From a virus, in the IMG/VR virus record IMGVR_UViG_3300032294_002797, positions 124,001-188,000 of that record: a stretch of 64,000 nucleotides of DNA; one strand, written 5' to 3'. Each line of letters opens with the position of its first letter. The first letter of the stretch is position 1. Positions 53,417 through 63,010 of this stretch are shown piece by piece. Under the pieces are notes generated by a model. That model made no database searches. It was given only the letters and a program-made list of their open reading frames with translations, and was not told where the DNA came from. A program made the position numbers and the translations under genes.

Positions 53417-53786
53417 ACGCCATAGCCTTCCTTGCAACAGGATTTATAACTGCTAAATTCGGACTAATCAAGAAAGCGTTTTTTACTTTGGTGTCTGATG
53501 GTAGAATAGTTGTATAATTAATTTCTAATATACTTCCATTCTTTTTAACCCCCAATAAATTATAATAAGGAGTATATTTCTCTGGACTAGTAGTTATATT
53601 TTTTTCTATATGATCATATAAAAAATTAGTTAGATGATCATCTAAAGTTAGGTTGTGTGTATCTTTATCAAGATTCAAGAAAAAAGATAAAGGCATATAG
53701 TGTCCATCGGTAGATGAGACAAAATATCTATTGCTTTTATCTTTTATATAGATAGCTGCCACTAGATTACATTTAACTTCAGGCAT
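53409..53786 (-). CDS. Hypothetical protein
   Basis: 125 residues. CNLVAAIYIKDKSNRYFVSS, MPLSFFLNLDKDTHNLTL and NAFLISPNLAVINPVA suggest a mixed alpha/beta fold. The overlap with the sigma-factor gene is 8 bases. Function unknown. Confidence 0.55.
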   Translation of the reverse strand: MPEVKCNLVAAIYIKDKSNRYFVSSTDGHYMPLSFFLNLDKDTHNLTLDDHLTNFLYDHIEKNITTSPEKYTPYYNLLGVKKNGSILEINYTTILPSDTKVKNAFLISPNLAVINPVARKAMAYV

Positions 53787-54369
53787 ATTGTCTGATCCTG
53801 GATAGACCCTTTTGAATATTTTGTCTAATTGCTTCTCTAGTGACGCTGTATTTATTACCTATCTCTAGTAATGTCTTATTATTAAAATAATATTCATAGA
53901 TTTGATCTTTTTGCTTATCAGACAAGATATCTGAATTCAAAATACATTCTATATATTTTGCTATCATATCTTTCTCTTCTTGTTCGGATACAATTTCAAA
54001 GGGATCAGACACTCCCTTGGTCTCTATATTTGATATATAGCTACGATTTTCCTTGTTATCGGAGGCATATTGATCCAGAGAATAATTGGTATTTTTCTTT
54101 TTATAACGATTAGATAAATATGTTTTAATAGCCCATAAACCGCACTGATTACGATAAGAATACTTGGTTTTCGATTTACCATTGTATCCCGTGCGAGTCT
54201 TGTCCCATTTCCAATCTGCTATCATTATAGCTTCTGCAATTTCTGATATTGCTTCTTCATTAGATAATAATTCTTGTCTTAAATTATTGTAAAATGACGG
54301 AGCAAACTTAGAAATAATTTTTTTAGCTAAATTTATATAGGTATCCAGAGTCTCAAATTGCTGTTCCAT
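53779..54369 (-). CDS. Sigma70-family factor, phage late-type (gp55-like)
   Basis: A 196-residue sigma-like protein. Residues 35-90 match sigma region 2 (AISEIAEAIMIADWKWDK, CGLWAIKTYLSNRY). The end, LSDKQKDQIYEYYF and LLEIGNKYSVTREAIRQNI, then GLSRIRQYA, is region 4 with its helix-turn-helix. It lacks regions 1 and 3, as in T4 gp55. It could direct RNA polymerase to the GGTGTATATAA motifs (inference). One of those motifs (56661) heads its own block. Confidence 0.85.
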   Translation of the reverse strand: MEQQFETLDTYINLAKKIISKFAPSFYNNLRQELLSNEEAISEIAEAIMIADWKWDKTRTGYNGKSKTKYSYRNQCGLWAIKTYLSNRYKKKNTNYSLDQYASDNKENRSYISNIETKGVSDPFEIVSEQEEKDMIAKYIECILNSDILSDKQKDQIYEYYFNNKTLLEIGNKYSVTREAIRQNIQKGLSRIRQYA

Positions 54370-56079: not shown

Positions 56080-56640
56080 TCACCAAGCTTTGCATGACCA
56101 GTATCGGGCTTTATACTTAGGTCCAGGATTATCGCAGTTGTGTCGTGCTCTAAAACTTTTACGTCTTTCGGGAATATTTTTTTTAATTTTCATATTAGGA
56201 TCACCAAATCTAACTATTATAACCTTGCCTTTTTCATTTTTAACATAAACCGCAGATTTTTTAGGTCCATCAGGAGTTCTGAAAGGTTTATTAAGAGTTA
56301 CTTTCCGTCCTTGATATTCTGATGCTATCAGATGAGAAATATCATATTCTTCTATTTCTTCACCAAAGTCAATATAGTCTTCTTCTTTAGGAATCAATAG
56401 ATTTGATAATGTAAGAAGTTCTTCTGGATCATCACAATCCTCACAATCATAGGCTAGGCTGAAACCTAATATCTCCATGACCTGATCAATCAAACTACTC
56501 TTAGATTTTTTGGTTTGACCCAAACATACGGACACTCTTTGTTTGGTGTCTTTATAGTCTTTTTTCATTGTTTCGTCACTCATGCAACGACTAACAAATT
56601 TTTGACTATCTTCATCTTTTCTTGGCTTTGGAATTGGCAT
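56080..56640 (-). CDS. Conserved phage protein with RARHNC-type C-terminal domain
   Basis: 186 residues. The N terminus PIPKPRKDEDSQKFVSRCM and the end SFRARHNCDNPGPKYKARYW with VIIVRFGDPNMKIKK are segments I recognise from metagenomic myovirus proteins (often near head genes). The Cys/His set may bind zinc. AGGAG precedes ATG 56640. A scaffold or head-linked role is likely (inference). Confidence 0.65.
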   Translation of the reverse strand: MPIPKPRKDEDSQKFVSRCMSDETMKKDYKDTKQRVSVCLGQTKKSKSSLIDQVMEILGFSLAYDCEDCDDPEELLTLSNLLIPKEEDYIDFGEEIEEYDISHLIASEYQGRKVTLNKPFRTPDGPKKSAVYVKNEKGKVIIVRFGDPNMKIKKNIPERRKSFRARHNCDNPGPKYKARYWSCKAW

Positions 56641-56694: not shown

Positions 56695-57765
56695 CTAAAT
56701 GTGGTTTTTTAAACAGTCTATGGTGCTGGACCAGCTAAGTTTTTTAGCAGTTTCTAAGCCATTGCTATTTGTTCTGATATTATTCTTATACACGTGTTGC
56801 ATATAACCTATAGTCTGATCTATTTGTGATTGTCCTAATTTCGCCCAATTTCCATTACCAAAAAACCATTTATTATCTATCGCAGGTTCTTTATCTTCGA
56901 TTTGCACAAGATAACTATTGTTTTCATTACAATATTCTGTATGAGCAGAATAATTCGATGCTATAACAGGTTTATTCATAGCCATAGTTTCTAATAATTC
57001 CATATTCCAGCCTTCTCCTCTGGAGATATAGACACCACAATCTGTATAAGAAATAATTTTTGCTACATCTTTTTGTGATGGTACTCTAGGGAAAATTTTA
57101 ATTTTATCTTTTAGTTTGCATTCCATGACTTTGGTAATCCAGACATTTTCTTCTTCAGGAGTAAGAAAGCCGTTATGAGTCAACATCCATAATTCTACAT
57201 TATCATTTGTATTAAAAGCTTTATTAAAACAATCTATAATAGTATCATGTGCTTTTCTTTTTTCCCATTTTCCTATAGTAATAAAAATGTATTTATCTCG
57301 TGGTATGGCTTGATGAGTATTTAGAGCGTTGTCAAAAATAGATCTATCTACTCCTAGTTTTACTATATCAATTTTAGTTTTAATATCATTATCTATCAAT
57401 ACTTGTTTGGCCCAAGATGAGGAAACTATGATTTGATCTGGAAAATTTAGATTAATTTTATCTTTATTAGACAGAGAATCCGTCTCAAAAAATGGCATAG
57501 CCATATATTTCCCCTTGCCTATACGAGACATAAGATCAAACTGGTGCCATATTTTCAGACATGTTGCATTGTATTCTATACTGTCTAGGTTAGACATATA
57601 TTTTTTTACAATGGACGCATCGTCTTCATGATCTATACTAGGATTTCCTATGGGGTATAAGCCAATATTATCTAAATTATGATCTATATAAAATCCCTTA
57701 AGAATATTTAACCCGACATAACCATATCCAGTATATCCTATTGGACTCATAATTGTAGTTTGCAT
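56695..57765 (-). CDS. Glycosyltransferase, GT4-like
   Basis: 356 residues. FITIGKWEKRKAHDTIIDCF starts the C-terminal domain, and GVYISRGEGWNMELLETMAM with PVIASNYSAHTEY is the GT4 donor site. The N-terminal half has YTGYGYVGLNIL. Its acceptor is unknown. It is the last gene of the accessory island and not linked to the GT cluster at 17-20 kb. Confidence 0.85.
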   Translation of the reverse strand: MQTTIMSPIGYTGYGYVGLNILKGFYIDHNLDNIGLYPIGNPSIDHEDDASIVKKYMSNLDSIEYNATCLKIWHQFDLMSRIGKGKYMAMPFFETDSLSNKDKINLNFPDQIIVSSSWAKQVLIDNDIKTKIDIVKLGVDRSIFDNALNTHQAIPRDKYIFITIGKWEKRKAHDTIIDCFNKAFNTNDNVELWMLTHNGFLTPEEENVWITKVMECKLKDKIKIFPRVPSQKDVAKIISYTDCGVYISRGEGWNMELLETMAMNKPVIASNYSAHTEYCNENNSYLVQIEDKEPAIDNKWFFGNGNWAKLGQSQIDQTIGYMQHVYKNNIRTNSNGLETAKKLSWSSTIDCLKNHI

Positions 57766-57771
57766 AGTAAC

Positions 57772-58896
57772 TTATATTCCTAATAATGGATTTTTATTAT
57801 TGTGTATTGTATTCGCTTTACAAAATTGGCTGCACTTTGACATGTATTTAATCTGAGAAGCCCCTATGTAACAACAGCAGGAGCGTATGCCTCCTAACAG
57901 TTCTTGTATTACTTTGTCTAAAGAACCTTTATATTTAACTATTATTTTTGTGCCTTCACTTGCTCTATACTCTTTCACTGTATCTTCGTATAGTTGTTGA
58001 GAGTGGTGTGTGCTCATACCATAATAAGAAAATTTAACTTTACGTTTTTCTGTTGGGTATCCAGGATCATTTGGTTGATAAAAATTGCCATGACGAACTA
58101 GATATTCATATTCCCATTCTCCGTCGCACGGATCACTTCCAGCAAAATAACCACCCAACATAACAAAATCTGCCCCAGCACATAGAGCCTTAGAAACATC
58201 TCCAGAAGTCTTATGTCCTCCATCAGAAACGATTAAGCCGAGTTTCTTGGGTCCATTTTGAAGACCATGAGCGACATAAGCATTTTCTAAACAGGCGGAT
58301 AACTGAGGCATTCCGCAGCCGGTTAGGAATCTTGTGGTACAGGCCGATCCCCCGCCTATTCCGACTTTTACTATGTCTACGCCGCCATAAATCAAAAGTT
58401 CTTGAGTAGATGATGTATTAGTGACATTTCCTGCAATAATAATTGATTCTGGAAAATGCTCTCTAACCTTATGACAATACTTAACAAAAACATCCATATG
58501 ACCATTGGGAACATCAATGCAGATATTTGGTTGTTTGCCTAGTTTTTGTTTAAGTTCTAGCAAATGAGCTAGGTCACTCTTTTTATATCCTATAGATACG
58601 AAAGTATAGTCAATATTGTTCGGATGTTTTATAAAATAATTTACTAATTCATCTACACTATGGTATTTATGTAAACATGCTATTATCTTATGATTAGCTA
58701 AGTCTTTAGCCATATCAAAACTACAAAAACTCATATTAGCACACATGATAGGTATACCAGTCCAAGTTCTTGGACTATGGTAAAAACTAAATGTTCTTTC
58801 TAAATGAATTTCTGATCGACTAGTTAGAGTGGATCGTTGAGGTACTATAAGAATATCATCAAAATCCAATTTGGTTTCATCAATAATTTTTTGCAT
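57772..58896 (-). CDS. guaC: GMP reductase/IMP dehydrogenase-family protein
   Basis: 374 residues of TIM-barrel. LDFDDILIVPQRSTLTSR at the start, KVGIGGGSACTTRFLTG with the catalytic Cys and LLGGIRSCCCYIGASQI are typical of GuaC (GMP to IMP with NADPH). No CBS domains, as in GuaC. Gly-Gly-Gly replaces the more usual GPGS. It would shift purine pools or remove GMP. Confidence 0.85.
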   Translation of the reverse strand: MQKIIDETKLDFDDILIVPQRSTLTSRSEIHLERTFSFYHSPRTWTGIPIMCANMSFCSFDMAKDLANHKIIACLHKYHSVDELVNYFIKHPNNIDYTFVSIGYKKSDLAHLLELKQKLGKQPNICIDVPNGHMDVFVKYCHKVREHFPESIIIAGNVTNTSSTQELLIYGGVDIVKVGIGGGSACTTRFLTGCGMPQLSACLENAYVAHGLQNGPKKLGLIVSDGGHKTSGDVSKALCAGADFVMLGGYFAGSDPCDGEWEYEYLVRHGNFYQPNDPGYPTEKRKVKFSYYGMSTHHSQQLYEDTVKEYRASEGTKIIVKYKGSLDKVIQELLGGIRSCCCYIGASQIKYMSKCSQFCKANTIHNNKNPLLGI

Positions 58897-58902
58897 ATAA
58901 TA

Positions 58903-59382
58903 TTACTTATCTTCCTTGTGAATAGTATTCTTTCCTTCTGGAAATTGATATAATACTCCGTAACTTATAAAAATTTCTTGGTTTTCTCGTATTGGTTGAG
59001 TTGCTTTACATCTACCTATAAGTTGTGTGTAATCTATTACAATCTCTGCATTGGGGTCGTCTTGATGATTATATATTCCTCCATACCCTAATCTTAGACA
59101 TAAAACTTCTCCGTGTCTTTTGCATTCCTCACACTCGCATTTTTTTGCAACAGAGTACTCTAGGACTCTGGTATCTCCTTGGTAATGTGTGCGGAAATAC
59201 AACGGCACCAAAGGAAATATTTCTATCACATCGCCTATAGAAAAATTTTTCTTTGCAAAAACCCCTATACCATGAACATCCGAAGCTTTAACATAAACTA
59301 ATTCTGAGGAGCATGCTATTTCAGGTAGTTTTGTAGACTCTGGTATATTTGGTATGGCTTTGGTTTTTGTTGTATCTAGCAT
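58903..59382 (-). CDS. SET-domain protein methyltransferase
   Basis: 159 residues. DVHGIGVFAKKNFSIGDVIE is the SET N-terminal SAM loop, GGIYNHQDDPNAEI the N-H-x-x-x-P-N pseudoknot and EIFISYG the catalytic Tyr end. A Cys cluster KKCECEECK is inserted. It is similar in size to the viral vSET enzyme. Targets in a bacterial host or virion are unknown. Confidence 0.83.
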   Translation of the reverse strand: MLDTTKTKAIPNIPESTKLPEIACSSELVYVKASDVHGIGVFAKKNFSIGDVIEIFPLVPLYFRTHYQGDTRVLEYSVAKKCECEECKRHGEVLCLRLGYGGIYNHQDDPNAEIVIDYTQLIGRCKATQPIRENQEIFISYGVLYQFPEGKNTIHKEDK

Positions 59383-59392
59383 TATGACTTCC

Positions 59393-59926
59393 TTATTTTA
59401 AGTTGAAAAAGCACCATCTTTTATTATGATAATCGGAATTAGTATTATTTATTTTATCTAGATATAGGATCATTTCATCCCAGTGACTAAAAATAAATTC
59501 ATGTGGCAATGTACCGAATAGCCAATCTGGCGCGTGATGTTTGCCTTGTTCCATCCTAACAAGAATCGGTTTTTTTTGTCTATTAGCCCAAAAAATTTCT
59601 TCCAAGGTTCCGCAAGGATGGGTATTGAGATCTAGATTAACTATCAAGAAATCACTGATATCCACCATCCTCAAATCTATAGATCTAATCTCTTTCATTA
59701 ATATAGATAATTCATCGAAAGACCCTTGCTCTTTAAGAGATTTCTTTTTTGCTACGACATTCTCATTTTCGACACCAGCACCTATAGGCTTATGTATAGG
59801 ATTAAGAACATGTACTCCATAACCTACTAATATGGGACTGATATAATCTCTCCATCCTACTCCTCTGTCGGGCACTCTGTCCATAGCACCAGCCAAGTAA
59901 CATCTTTGATTAGAAAGTTTATTCAT
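59393..59926 (-). CDS. Nucleoside 2-deoxyribosyltransferase-like protein
   Basis: 177 residues. CYLAGAMDRVPDRGVGWRDY is the start pattern of the DRT superfamily; DLRMVDISDFLIVNLDLN holds the acidic substrate residues and THPCGTLEEIFWA the catalytic glutamate. The family exchanges bases on deoxyribonucleosides or cleaves nucleotides; the fold is related to TIR-like/NAD-type enzymes. Activity here is uncertain. Confidence 0.77.
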   Translation of the reverse strand: MNKLSNQRCYLAGAMDRVPDRGVGWRDYISPILVGYGVHVLNPIHKPIGAGVENENVVAKKKSLKEQGSFDELSILMKEIRSIDLRMVDISDFLIVNLDLNTHPCGTLEEIFWANRQKKPILVRMEQGKHHAPDWLFGTLPHEFIFSHWDEMILYLDKINNTNSDYHNKRWCFFNLK

Positions 59927-59932
59927 GAAATA

Positions 59933-60064
59933 TTATTTTCCTAAGAAAAAATCTATCACTGATCTATCTGAATTCTTTACAGTTTTAAAATTTGGAGAAT
60001 ATAATTTTACTAAGCCGTCTATAAAACCACATATGATCATTAACAAAAAAGCAAAATAAAGCAT
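59933..60064 (-). CDS. Small membrane protein
   Basis: 43 residues from ATG 60064. The first half, YFAFLLMIICGFIDGLVKLY, is one membrane helix. A longer frame begins at 60124 but overlaps the macro-domain gene by 56 bases. Function unknown. The neighbouring genes are all in the same operon. Confidence 0.5.
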   Translation of the reverse strand: MLYFAFLLMIICGFIDGLVKLYSPNFKTVKNSDRSVIDFFLGK

Positions 60065-60068
60065 ATTT

Positions 60069-60614
60069 TTATTTCGAAGAGATAGGATTGTAAATAAATA
60101 CAGGAATGTCATTCCATATGTCATGTATCAAACATTCGATAAATTTCCATTGACCACCAGCAAGTCCGCTGCCAAATTTGGGAGCATGAATCTCTACGGT
60201 TGATGTGTCTGATTGAGAATTAAGATTTTTAACAAGATGCTTGATATTTAACATACACATAGACAATGCTCCGTAATTTAATGGTCTTATATTTTGTTTA
60301 TTAATTAAACCATTTTGAGCAATCATATTAATTACTATCAATTCATGTCCATATTGTTTATTTTTCATGACTAATATATTTTGATTCTGACCAAGTACAG
60401 GCTTGCGTAAAAGATGAAAATTTTCTTTGACTATAGGAAATGTATGAGCAATAGCATCAGCAAATCCAGCCCCAAAAGCATTAACATTATTACATACATG
60501 AGGTATAATAACTGTCGCTCCTGTAGAAGCGGATTCTACTCGGTCTTTGGTTATGGTAAAGATATTTTTGTTTAGATAGTGCAGCTTAGAAGATGAATCG
60601 GTTTGAATGGTCAT
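60069..60614 (-). CDS. Macro-domain protein (ADP-ribose binding/hydrolase)
   Basis: 181 residues from ATG 60614, in an ATGA overlap with a GGAG site. VIIPHVCNNVNAFGAGFADA and EIHAPKFGSGLAGGQWKFIE are the macro-domain ADP-ribose loops, closest in form to Poa1-like or ALC1-like types. It may remove ADP-ribose from proteins or degrade ADP-ribose 1''-phosphate, perhaps to counter host ADP-ribosylation (inference). Confidence 0.82.
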   Translation of the reverse strand: MTIQTDSSSKLHYLNKNIFTITKDRVESASTGATVIIPHVCNNVNAFGAGFADAIAHTFPIVKENFHLLRKPVLGQNQNILVMKNKQYGHELIVINMIAQNGLINKQNIRPLNYGALSMCMLNIKHLVKNLNSQSDTSTVEIHAPKFGSGLAGGQWKFIECLIHDIWNDIPVFIYNPISSK

Positions 60615-60859
60615 TTTTTGCTCCATTTACCTAAAGGACATTCTTGATCCGCCCAGGCTAATTTATTTAAGAATACTTTCTTTCGATTCACATTACATCC
60701 ACAGACCATACAAGTAGAATCTTTTGTATTATACATGTCACATCCTCCTGAACAAATAGCAAATCGTTCAAAAATTTCTTGCTTAGAACACTTGGGAAAT
60801 CCTGCATAAATATGAAAAAACAAGGATTTCAAAAAAGTCTTAATTTTTAGTATGGTCAT
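60611..60859 (-). CDS. Cys-rich small protein, zinc-binding candidate
   Basis: 82 residues. CSGGCDMYNTKDSTCMVCGC plus the C-terminal NKLAWADQECPLGKW resemble a small Cys-rich family found in phages and bacteria. Eight or nine cysteines could hold two zinc ions. The stop overlaps the macro gene start. Function unknown. Confidence 0.68.
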   Translation of the reverse strand: MTILKIKTFLKSLFFHIYAGFPKCSKQEIFERFAICSGGCDMYNTKDSTCMVCGCNVNRKKVFLNKLAWADQECPLGKWSKK

Positions 60860-61085
60860 TGCTATTATCTTGTATTGGTATTATATTCTTATCTTTATCA
60901 ATATAATAAATTTCTGTAGATTCTACCGTAGTGTTTTCTGGTAGCCATATTCCGGCTCCGCTAGTTATGTTGATAGCATAACAATATTTATTTTTATCTC
61001 TAAACTTAAAGTCTATAGTCAAGACAAATATATTCTCTCTATAAAAGAATATGTTCCCGGGTTTTAGTTCCTCAAGATATTTCAT
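60840..61085 (-). CDS. Small hypothetical protein, paralogue of 1041-1226
   Basis: 81 residues. It begins EELKPGNIFFYRENIFVL and ends TEIYYIDKDKN, with the same strand pattern as the 61-residue protein in the polymerase operon. The two are in separate operons. Function unknown. Confidence 0.6.
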   Translation of the reverse strand: MKYLEELKPGNIFFYRENIFVLTIDFKFRDKNKYCYAINITSGAGIWLPENTTVESTEIYYIDKDKNIIPIQDNSNDHTKN

Positions 61086-61257
61086 TCTCCCAGTCTTCCC
61101 AAAGTTCTTCTGCTCTTAGTTGTTGTTTTTTTTGTTTGAACTGTTTTTTAAGTTTATTGCGATCTTTAGATTCTACAATACCGTCATCTCTAGCATCGAG
61201 ATGCTTTTTCTTAAAACTGTCTCTTCTCTGAATTTTTCTATCGTTTTCTTCGTTCAT
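61072..61257 (-). CDS. Small charged helical protein
   Basis: 61 residues, nearly all charged (NKLKKQFKQKKQQLRAEELW). A short coiled coil is likely. It is the first gene after the sigma70-like promoter and overlaps the next by 14 bases. Function unknown; possibly an early small protein. Confidence 0.55.
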   Translation of the reverse strand: MNEENDRKIQRRDSFKKKHLDARDDGIVESKDRNKLKKQFKQKKQQLRAEELWEDWENEIS

Positions 61258-61273
61258 ATCGATCTTTCATATA

Positions 61274-61301
61274 ATTATACAACAACCGGGGAATGGGTCA
61301 A
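61274..61301 (-). promoter_or_regulatory. Sigma70-type promoter for accessory island
   Basis: On the minus strand TTGACC (61301-61296), a 16-base spacer and TATAAT (61279-61274). It lies in the 54-base gap after the subtilase gene, and the start would be about 61267, ten bases before ATG 61257. Together with the 23.08 kb promoter this is the only clear host-type promoter I find. Confidence 0.7.
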
Positions 61302-61311
61302 GAATCGTTTT

Positions 61312-62232
61312 TTACATAGTTGGTCTAATAATACCATTACCTTCGTATCTCCTTAATCCTCTATATTTAGCATTATTTAATGGCATAGTATTTTTTTTAA
61401 AATGATCTATGTATTCTTTTTGTTGAGGTTTTGCTAAGGGATCTTTTTTTCTCAATAAGGAAAGCCATAAAGCTGCACACCCCACAGCAAAAGGAGTAGA
61501 CATACTAGTACCAGACATTACGGCATAACTATTGCCTGGTGCTGCGCTAATAATATCTGCTCCTGGGGCTAGGAAATCCAAAGAATCACCAGTACAACTA
61601 AATTGACAAATATCTAGACTCCGATCAATTGCTCCTATACTTATAGTCTCATCATATTTAGCAGGAAAATTTATTTCATGTTTTAATCCACTATTACCGG
61701 CGGCACAAAAAATAATCACTCCCTTACCTGTAGCATATAGCAATGCTCTTTCAATGGCTAAAGAAGGATAAGTTGATCCAAGTGACATTGTTATTATATC
61801 TGCCCCATGATCTGTCGCCCATACTATAGCAGAACCGACGTTGTTATTGGAACCCATACCACTATCATCAAGTGCTTTTATAGGCATAATTTTAACTGAT
61901 GGAGCCACCCCTACTATTCCTCTATTATTATTGATAGCGGCGATAGTTCCTGCAACATGAGTTCCGTGTCCATTAACATCTATGGGATCTGTATTCGGTT
62001 GAATAATATTGTACCCGTCAACTAGATTATCTTTAATATCATCATGATTGATATCACAACCGGTATCTATTACAGCAACAGTAACTCCTACCCCATTTGT
62101 TTTAGACCAACATGTTGGAACATCGAATAATGATATAGACCAAGGGAATATTTGTCCTGCAGAAGCTGATAATCCGTATATAGGCTCTTTAATATGCGGT
62201 AACAGTCTACATTCTTTACGATTTCTATTCAT
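61312..62232 (-). CDS. Subtilisin-like serine protease (S8)
   Basis: 306 residues, triad Asp56 (VAVIDTGCD), His89 (NGHGTHVAG) and Ser243 (SGTSMSTP), oxyanion Asn180 (CAAGNSG). It has no signal peptide and only a short N-terminal stretch (about 45 residues) instead of a typical prodomain, so it may act inside the cell or be a virion enzyme. It overlaps the S1 gene by 8 bases. Confidence 0.92.
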   Translation of the reverse strand: MNRNRKECRLLPHIKEPIYGLSASAGQIFPWSISLFDVPTCWSKTNGVGVTVAVIDTGCDINHDDIKDNLVDGYNIIQPNTDPIDVNGHGTHVAGTIAAINNNRGIVGVAPSVKIMPIKALDDSGMGSNNNVGSAIVWATDHGADIITMSLGSTYPSLAIERALLYATGKGVIIFCAAGNSGLKHEINFPAKYDETISIGAIDRSLDICQFSCTGDSLDFLAPGADIISAAPGNSYAVMSGTSMSTPFAVGCAALWLSLLRKKDPLAKPQQKEYIDHFKKNTMPLNNAKYRGLRRYEGNGIIRPTM

Positions 62233-63010
62233 GGGGAGACACTTTCTCTAATAGTTGTTTATTTGTATCAATCCAATCTATATAATAGCTGATTCTTGTG
62301 TGTCCACTCTCATCTCCATAATTAGAGTCTGTTAATCTATCTGAGGCAAATACGCACGAGTGAATACCAGCTAATTTTTTATCTATAAATAATCCACCTC
62401 CACTATCACCAGGAGTGATTAAACACTCTAATGAGGTTTTTGGTTTGTCATCATTAGTACAAATAAGTAAATGATTTTCTATCCTATTGATTATATTGGA
62501 GCCTGCTCTTTTTTTATTTGCTGGTATATTTTTATCAAACCCTGTAATAAAATTGCCGGGGGATCCGAAACCGGCCTGACTACTAACTTTTCCTACCTCG
62601 TTAGTCTCATTATAAAGATTAGGATAAAAATTAAGCTTAATAGGGATTTCTAATTTGCCGATTGCTATGTCATAAAAACCTATCTTTCCACGCAAAAATT
62701 TGTCATGTATTATAAAAGAAGAGCAGGGATAAATATTTTTATCAAATAAAACCATAGGCTTATCTGAACCATCCAAGATGTGTGCGGCGGTTAAAAAATA
62801 ATAATCTCCAATTAACACACAAGATCCACGATAAGGAGTATGTAATTCATCTTTATAATTACCGATTATAGATAATACGCATTCATGTTGCGCCCCATAA
62901 TTAAGATATTCATCGTCTGATCGCACAGGATCCATAGTAATACTATAACTAGTAGTACTATATAATAAAATAGAAATACAAATAATAATTTTTAAAATAT
63001 ATGTAAACAT
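62225..63010 (-). CDS. Secreted trypsin-like serine protease (S1)
   Basis: 261 residues. A signal peptide (TYILKIIICISILLYSTTSY) is followed by the chymotrypsin fold: His77 in LTAAHIL, Asp114 in FYDIAIG and Ser203 in TPGDSGGGL. Cys pairs at C64/C96 and others could form disulfides. It is likely exported to the periplasm or beyond. S1 enzymes are rare in phages. It shares a base with the HNH gene. Confidence 0.88.
   Translation of the reverse strand: MFTYILKIIICISILLYSTTSYSITMDPVRSDDEYLNYGAQHECVLSIIGNYKDELHTPYRGSCVLIGDYYFLTAAHILDGSDKPMVLFDKNIYPCSSFIIHDKFLRGKIGFYDIAIGKLEIPIKLNFYPNLYNETNEVGKVSSQAGFGSPGNFITGFDKNIPANKKRAGSNIINRIENHLLICTNDDKPKTSLECLITPGDSGGGLFIDKKLAGIHSCVFASDRLTDSNYGDESGHTRISYYIDWIDTNKQLLEKVSPHE

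Follow-up and report, generated by a model that had tools for sequence, protein, structure and literature searches.

The nine minus-strand genes that run from 61257 down to 56695 of the window, by which we mean the whole 64,000-nucleotide stretch analysed in this study (124001-188000 of a virus record 223,302 bases long, GC about 34%), form a promoter-driven core operon, consisting of known enzyme kinds in an order that is kept in nearly all relatives, and not an optional island. An enzyme set resembling anti-defence cargo thereby belongs to the backbone common to a large family of uncultivated jumbo phages. For the function of this core operon of an AT-rich phage family, the explanation we favor, with slightly better than even confidence, is that GuaC and an NDT-like protein steer purines toward adenine and that a macrodomain protein removes ADP-ribose marks or signals.

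Organization of the operon and its promoter

The promoter, the nine genes and the gene that follows them are arranged as below (all on the minus strand).

61274-61301, minus strand: sigma70-type promoter, TTGACC-16-TATAAT (score 11/12), preceding the first gene and conserved in relatives
61072-61257, minus strand: charged 61-aa protein with the motif EELWEDWE, conserved in the first position
60840-61085, minus strand: conserved 81-aa small protein, weak match to phrog_8365
60611-60859, minus strand: conserved 82-aa Cys-rich small protein, phrog_13558
60069-60626, minus strand: SCO6735/TARG1-type macrodomain protein (macro), active-site residues V44, N46 and Q104
59933-60124, minus strand: 63-aa hydrophobic small ORF, with homologues in three relatives (L098, L107 and L135)
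59393-59926, minus strand: NDT/DNPH1-fold N-glycosidase or transferase (NDT), with conserved nucleophile E110, Y10 and D92
58903-59382, minus strand: SET-domain protein, patchy, between NDT and GuaC, a tandem duplicate in some relatives
57772-58896, minus strand: GuaC, GMP reductase of allelic type A, with conserved triad C186, T188 and E314 plus D225
56695-57765, minus strand: GT4-like glycosyltransferase (GT), conserved directly after GuaC
56080-56640, minus strand: conserved next gene on the same strand, the unit having no visible end at the island boundary

The nine genes and the promoter proposed in the first-pass annotation are both in place, and the gene identities given there (macro, deoxyribosyltransferase-like, SET and GuaC) hold after analysis of profiles, PHROG matches, folds and active-site residues. 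Neighboring ORFs overlap or are separated by gaps of 6-10 nt, a spacing that is consistent with a single transcript. The promoter at 61301-61274 carries the top listed score for this region (11/12), which is equaled by three other sites. The occurrence of a promoter upstream of the first gene exceeds chance: 22 of 29 distinct sequences (an approximate count, as some relatives are close kin) have the same kind of promoter, scoring at least 10/12, in front of the gene equivalent to the first one, mostly with the -10 end located 9-40 nt before the start codon, while about 1.2 were expected from base-shuffled sequences that keep the base but not the dinucleotide content. Transcription would start from this host-type sigma70 promoter and would probably take place early in infection.

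The downstream end of the unit, placed at 56695 in the same annotation, was not confirmed. No terminator-like site was detected in the 54-nt gap between the 56695 gene and the next gene on the same strand, so that 56695 cannot be taken as an established boundary; the conserved gene order runs further, into the genes of the prohead-protease region. A gene for a sigma-70-like factor, which could switch transcription to late genes, is located downstream on the strand of the operon (window 53779-54369). Two protease genes lie directly upstream of the operon (window 61312-63010), one for a subtilase (S8), which is patchy in relatives, and one for a trypsin-like enzyme.

Conservation within an uncultivated jumbo-phage family

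The region gave no match to cultured phages by megablast, and the matches of its terminase to Bacillus phages, Slash and Stahl among them, reached only about 25%. At least 599 terminase stretches related to that of the window phage are present in IMG/VR, and more than 500 related contigs at least were found via NDT or terminase. The window phage belongs to a large family of uncultivated, AT-rich jumbo phages.

The terminase served to pick relatives, which were then searched over the whole record, a design meant to remove selection bias. Macro, NDT and GuaC were all present, in order, in 7/7 terminase-selected records of at least 150 kb. Three terminase-selected records of 107-122 kb lacked all three genes, an absence that is expected for fragments of this length because terminase and GuaC are about 140 kb apart in the window record. 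Among 16 long records (the window record plus 15 relatives, a set partly selected on GuaC and NDT), each of the three genes was identified in 16/16. The block had been described as an accessory island, for which a conserved core position in relatives was named as the refuting observation; such a position, with the three genes in order, is what both sets of records revealed. The recurring order, as recovered by searches anchored on GuaC or NDT, is small genes, macro, NDT, (SET), GuaC, GT, next gene, and genes for ferritin-like, PAP2, sigma-like and ClpP-like protease proteins.

The only clearly accessory gene of the block is that for the SET protein, identified in 10/16 records and perhaps a later, optional addition. 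The domain was recognized with PF00856 (1.1e-8, 35.9 bits against a cut-off of 22.4), and its core motifs (NH and C-terminal Tyr) are present, N105, H106 and Y141 being invariant in 9 sequences. From its family membership, the predicted activity is protein lysine methylation.

GuaC, a GMP reductase with alleles apparently swapped

GuaC matched the IMPDH/GMPR profile PF00478 (6.8e-55) and the NCBIfam GMP reductase family NF003470 (1.7e-106), the latter below the equivalog cut-off (356 against 397 bits) but still the best family by far; among solved structures, human GMPR1 and GMPR2 are the closest. Among 105 phage sequences, C186, R189, D225 and E314 are conserved in 105/105 and T188 in 104/105. 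Alignment to the solved relatives mapped E314 to Glu289 in hGMPR2 numbering, the catalytic residues being Cys186, Thr188 and Glu289. Replacement of the catalytic Glu by His, which had been suspected from the motif GMSTHH, was rejected after Glu289 was mapped to the motif RASEG. With its active site fully conserved, GuaC is predicted to convert GMP to IMP. The window protein resembles the cellular GMP reductases (E. coli GuaC, human GMPR1/2) in full-length match, the catalytic residues Cys-Thr-Glu and the ribose-binding Asp, but differs in an insertion before the GMS motif, in its score below the NCBIfam cut-off, and in alteration of the type A allele at the neighbors of ANM, GxGS, DGG and GMS.

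Type A, as in the window, carries ANMSF, GGSAC, SDGGH and GMSTHH, whereas type B carries ANMT, SGSVC, SDGGC and GMSSK. These two types share one locus, the loci carrying them having a GC content of 28-41%, and type C is found in distant phages. Along loci L002-L151, the type changed 3 times on the GuaC tree against 17 times on the NDT tree, which suggests that GuaC alleles have repeatedly been swapped at one locus (both are quick single-gene FastTree trees, and the exact counts of changes are soft).

In the explanation favored above, GuaC would reduce GMP to IMP, so that host guanine nucleotides would shift to the adenine branch, and the supply from this branch may serve the DNA of about 34% GC. 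The residues remodeled beside the active site of type A (ANMSFC, GGSAC, SDGGH and GMSTHH) raise another thought, that its substrate might differ from GMP. An extension of it, in which a type A GuaC of changed substrate and the viral NDT subfamily make up a dedicated two-enzyme pathway dismantling guanine nucleotides, either for starvation of guanine-based host signals in alarm or immunity (ppGpp, cGMP- or cGAMP-type) or for production of a non-canonical purine nucleotide, is in our judgment improbable.

The NDT-like protein and its link to GuaC

NDT matched PF05014 with 2.3e-4 and 21.7 bits, below the gathering score of 28.8, and a sequence search of PDB with this protein gave no match. The AlphaFold model from 12 relatives reached a pLDDT of 85.5 (the other four models, 56-76), and its fold matches NDTs and human DNPH1 (Foldseek, 2a0k 5e-6 and DNPH1 4e-4). 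Y10, G106, E109 and E110 were found in 102/102 homologues, Asp92 is near-invariant, and the nucleophilic Glu sits in a GTxxE motif. This combination of fold and residues points to a protein that removes the base from a (deoxy)nucleoside or nucleotide, or swaps it for another; as the usual partner of GuaC, the protein would act on the same nucleoside and nucleotide pool. Within the NDT/DNPH1 (RCL)/YtoQ superfamily (DrHyd), the window subfamily shares the fold, Tyr10, Asp92 and the nucleophile Glu110, but is set apart by an identity of about 15%, its own C-terminal RW motif and a nearly exclusively viral distribution. In cellular genomes it was detected at 20 loci in 84,980 species, all of them metagenome-assembled genomes, and at least 2 of these loci plainly belong to the phage family of the window. 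At another locus (L253:5983-9093), a bacterial cousin of NDT adjoins an ATPase and an HNH protein that, as judged by eye, resemble a Septu-like pair.

The GuaC-NDT pair is recurrent across several phage lineages. In a distant marine lineage both genes lie within 14 kb in 9/11 records, and contigs L251 and L252 also hold close pairs. The pairing is not obligatory, since other phage lineages carry GuaC without NDT, and GuaC is missing within reach of about 15 NDT loci. The phage GMP reductases of Caulobacter phage Cr30, Xanthomonas phage XacN1 and Stenotrophomonas phage RAS14 (phrog_9582; 33-36% identity) are likewise encoded by large phages as stand-alone GuaC, but no NDT is annotated in the 5-6 kb flanks examined, unlike in the window.

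This recurrence bears on the view that the genes are neighbors without shared purpose, i.e., phage genes of a housekeeping type (nucleotide, ADP-ribose, glycan and virion), independent of one another, that merely stay in order. The functions are indeed mixed, the conservation runs on into virion genes, and in relatives the distance from macro to NDT reaches about 12 kb; the proximity of GuaC and NDT, however, recurs in lineages of otherwise reshuffled order, and we consider this view rather unlikely, though it deserves some weight. The parts worth follow-up are the pairing, which recurs in unrelated phages, and the swapping of GuaC alleles; together they offer a concrete and cheap test of purine-pool reshaping by AT-rich phages.

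Glycosyltransferase and the glycan cassette of relatives

The product of 56695-57765 belongs to GT group 1 by Pfam (PF00534, 1.4e-14). The variable region in relatives is the macro-NDT gap, ranging from 0 to about 12 kb and holding cassette genes for glycosyltransferases, epimerase, UDP-galactopyranose mutase (GLF), aminotransferase and methyltransferases; in the window its sole content is the 63-aa ORF. This position (occupied, for instance, in L034, L036 and L040) is a recurrent insertion hotspot for a sugar/glycosyltransferase cassette, empty in the window. GT would be part of a glycan function that grows into this cassette in relatives.

With GT nearly always following GuaC in close relatives, and with glycosyltransferases, epimerase, GLF and aminotransferase inserted beside NDT, GuaC and NDT might be thought to supply nucleotide sugars (GDP-sugars) for the adjacent glycosyltransferases. 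We regard this as very improbable: both genes are kept where the cassette is absent, as in the window, the flanks in the distant marine lineage yielded no GT homologue, and GuaC would lower, not raise, the precursors of GDP-sugars.

The macrodomain protein and the question of counter-defence

No Pfam profile, including PF01661 (Macro), matched the window macro protein, and sequence matches were obtained with phrog_335 (6.8e-19) and the solved macrodomains 2afc, 2fg1 and 5e3b (1e-13 to 1e-11). Its model (pLDDT 89) is nearest in fold to 2fg1/2afc and SCO6735 (5e3b), and then to Poa1p, TARG1 and DarG (Foldseek, 2fg1 3.7e-13, 5e3b 4.8e-11, TARG1 7e-9 and DarG 3e-8). SCO6735 cleaves thymidine-linked ADP-ribose from DNA via Val25, Asn27 and Gln85, and its Lys34 and Lys89 help on the DNA substrate (PMC9411070). 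V44, N46 and Q104 of the window protein are equivalents of the former three residues, but by alignment A53 and I108 stand in place of the two lysines. Among 67 macro sequences, N46 is kept in 58/67 and lost in 9/67, and Q104 is kept in 62/67. The protein is similar to the SCO6735/TARG1/DarG-type (ALC1-like) hydrolases in fold, Val-x-Asn, the Gln85 equivalent and the motif G-L-A-G-G-x-W; unlike the DarG type, it has no coupled DarT-like toxin in the gene neighborhoods examined. From these features it is likely an ADP-ribose hydrolase, and within the favored explanation it may strip ADP-ribose from a target or degrade a host-made ADP-ribose signal. RNA repair linked to KptA (PF01885) was rejected as its partner function, KptA being detected in 0/16 records (which may be incomplete).

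Macro domains are reported in 56% of jumbo phages and have been proposed to counter ADP-ribose signals (PMC9503650), so that the presence of macro alone is unsurprising. They are what the window has in common with the phage NAD+/ADP-ribose gene networks of that survey, which makes no mention of GMP reductase, and the window module is without KptA. Together with the DNA-directed activity of SCO6735 (PMC9411070) and the conserved promoter, the proposed role of phage macro domains speaks for a block that works as a single module of counter-defence, directed at NAD- or ADP-ribose-based immunity, in which macro would clear signals or DNA marks, NDT would degrade signals, and GuaC and SET would aid takeover. 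The genes are core, however, and the block gave no match to PADLOC defence families. No genes for NAD synthesis, salvage or repair, or for DNA modification, were recognized when the ORF starts in the rest of the record were read by eye. Moreover, the lysines important on DNA are not kept, and GuaC-NDT pairs also occur where the 8-kb flanks gave no macro homologue. Such a module therefore appears unlikely. GuaC and NDT are more simply read as nucleotide metabolism than as anti-defence, and an anti-ADP-ribose or anti-defence role is plausible, from model and motifs, for the macro protein alone of the block, which adds a testable candidate ADP-ribose hydrolase. In the macro genes of three relatives (L016, L026 and L045) the NN..GAGF loop is lost, and these are perhaps binding-only or decaying versions.
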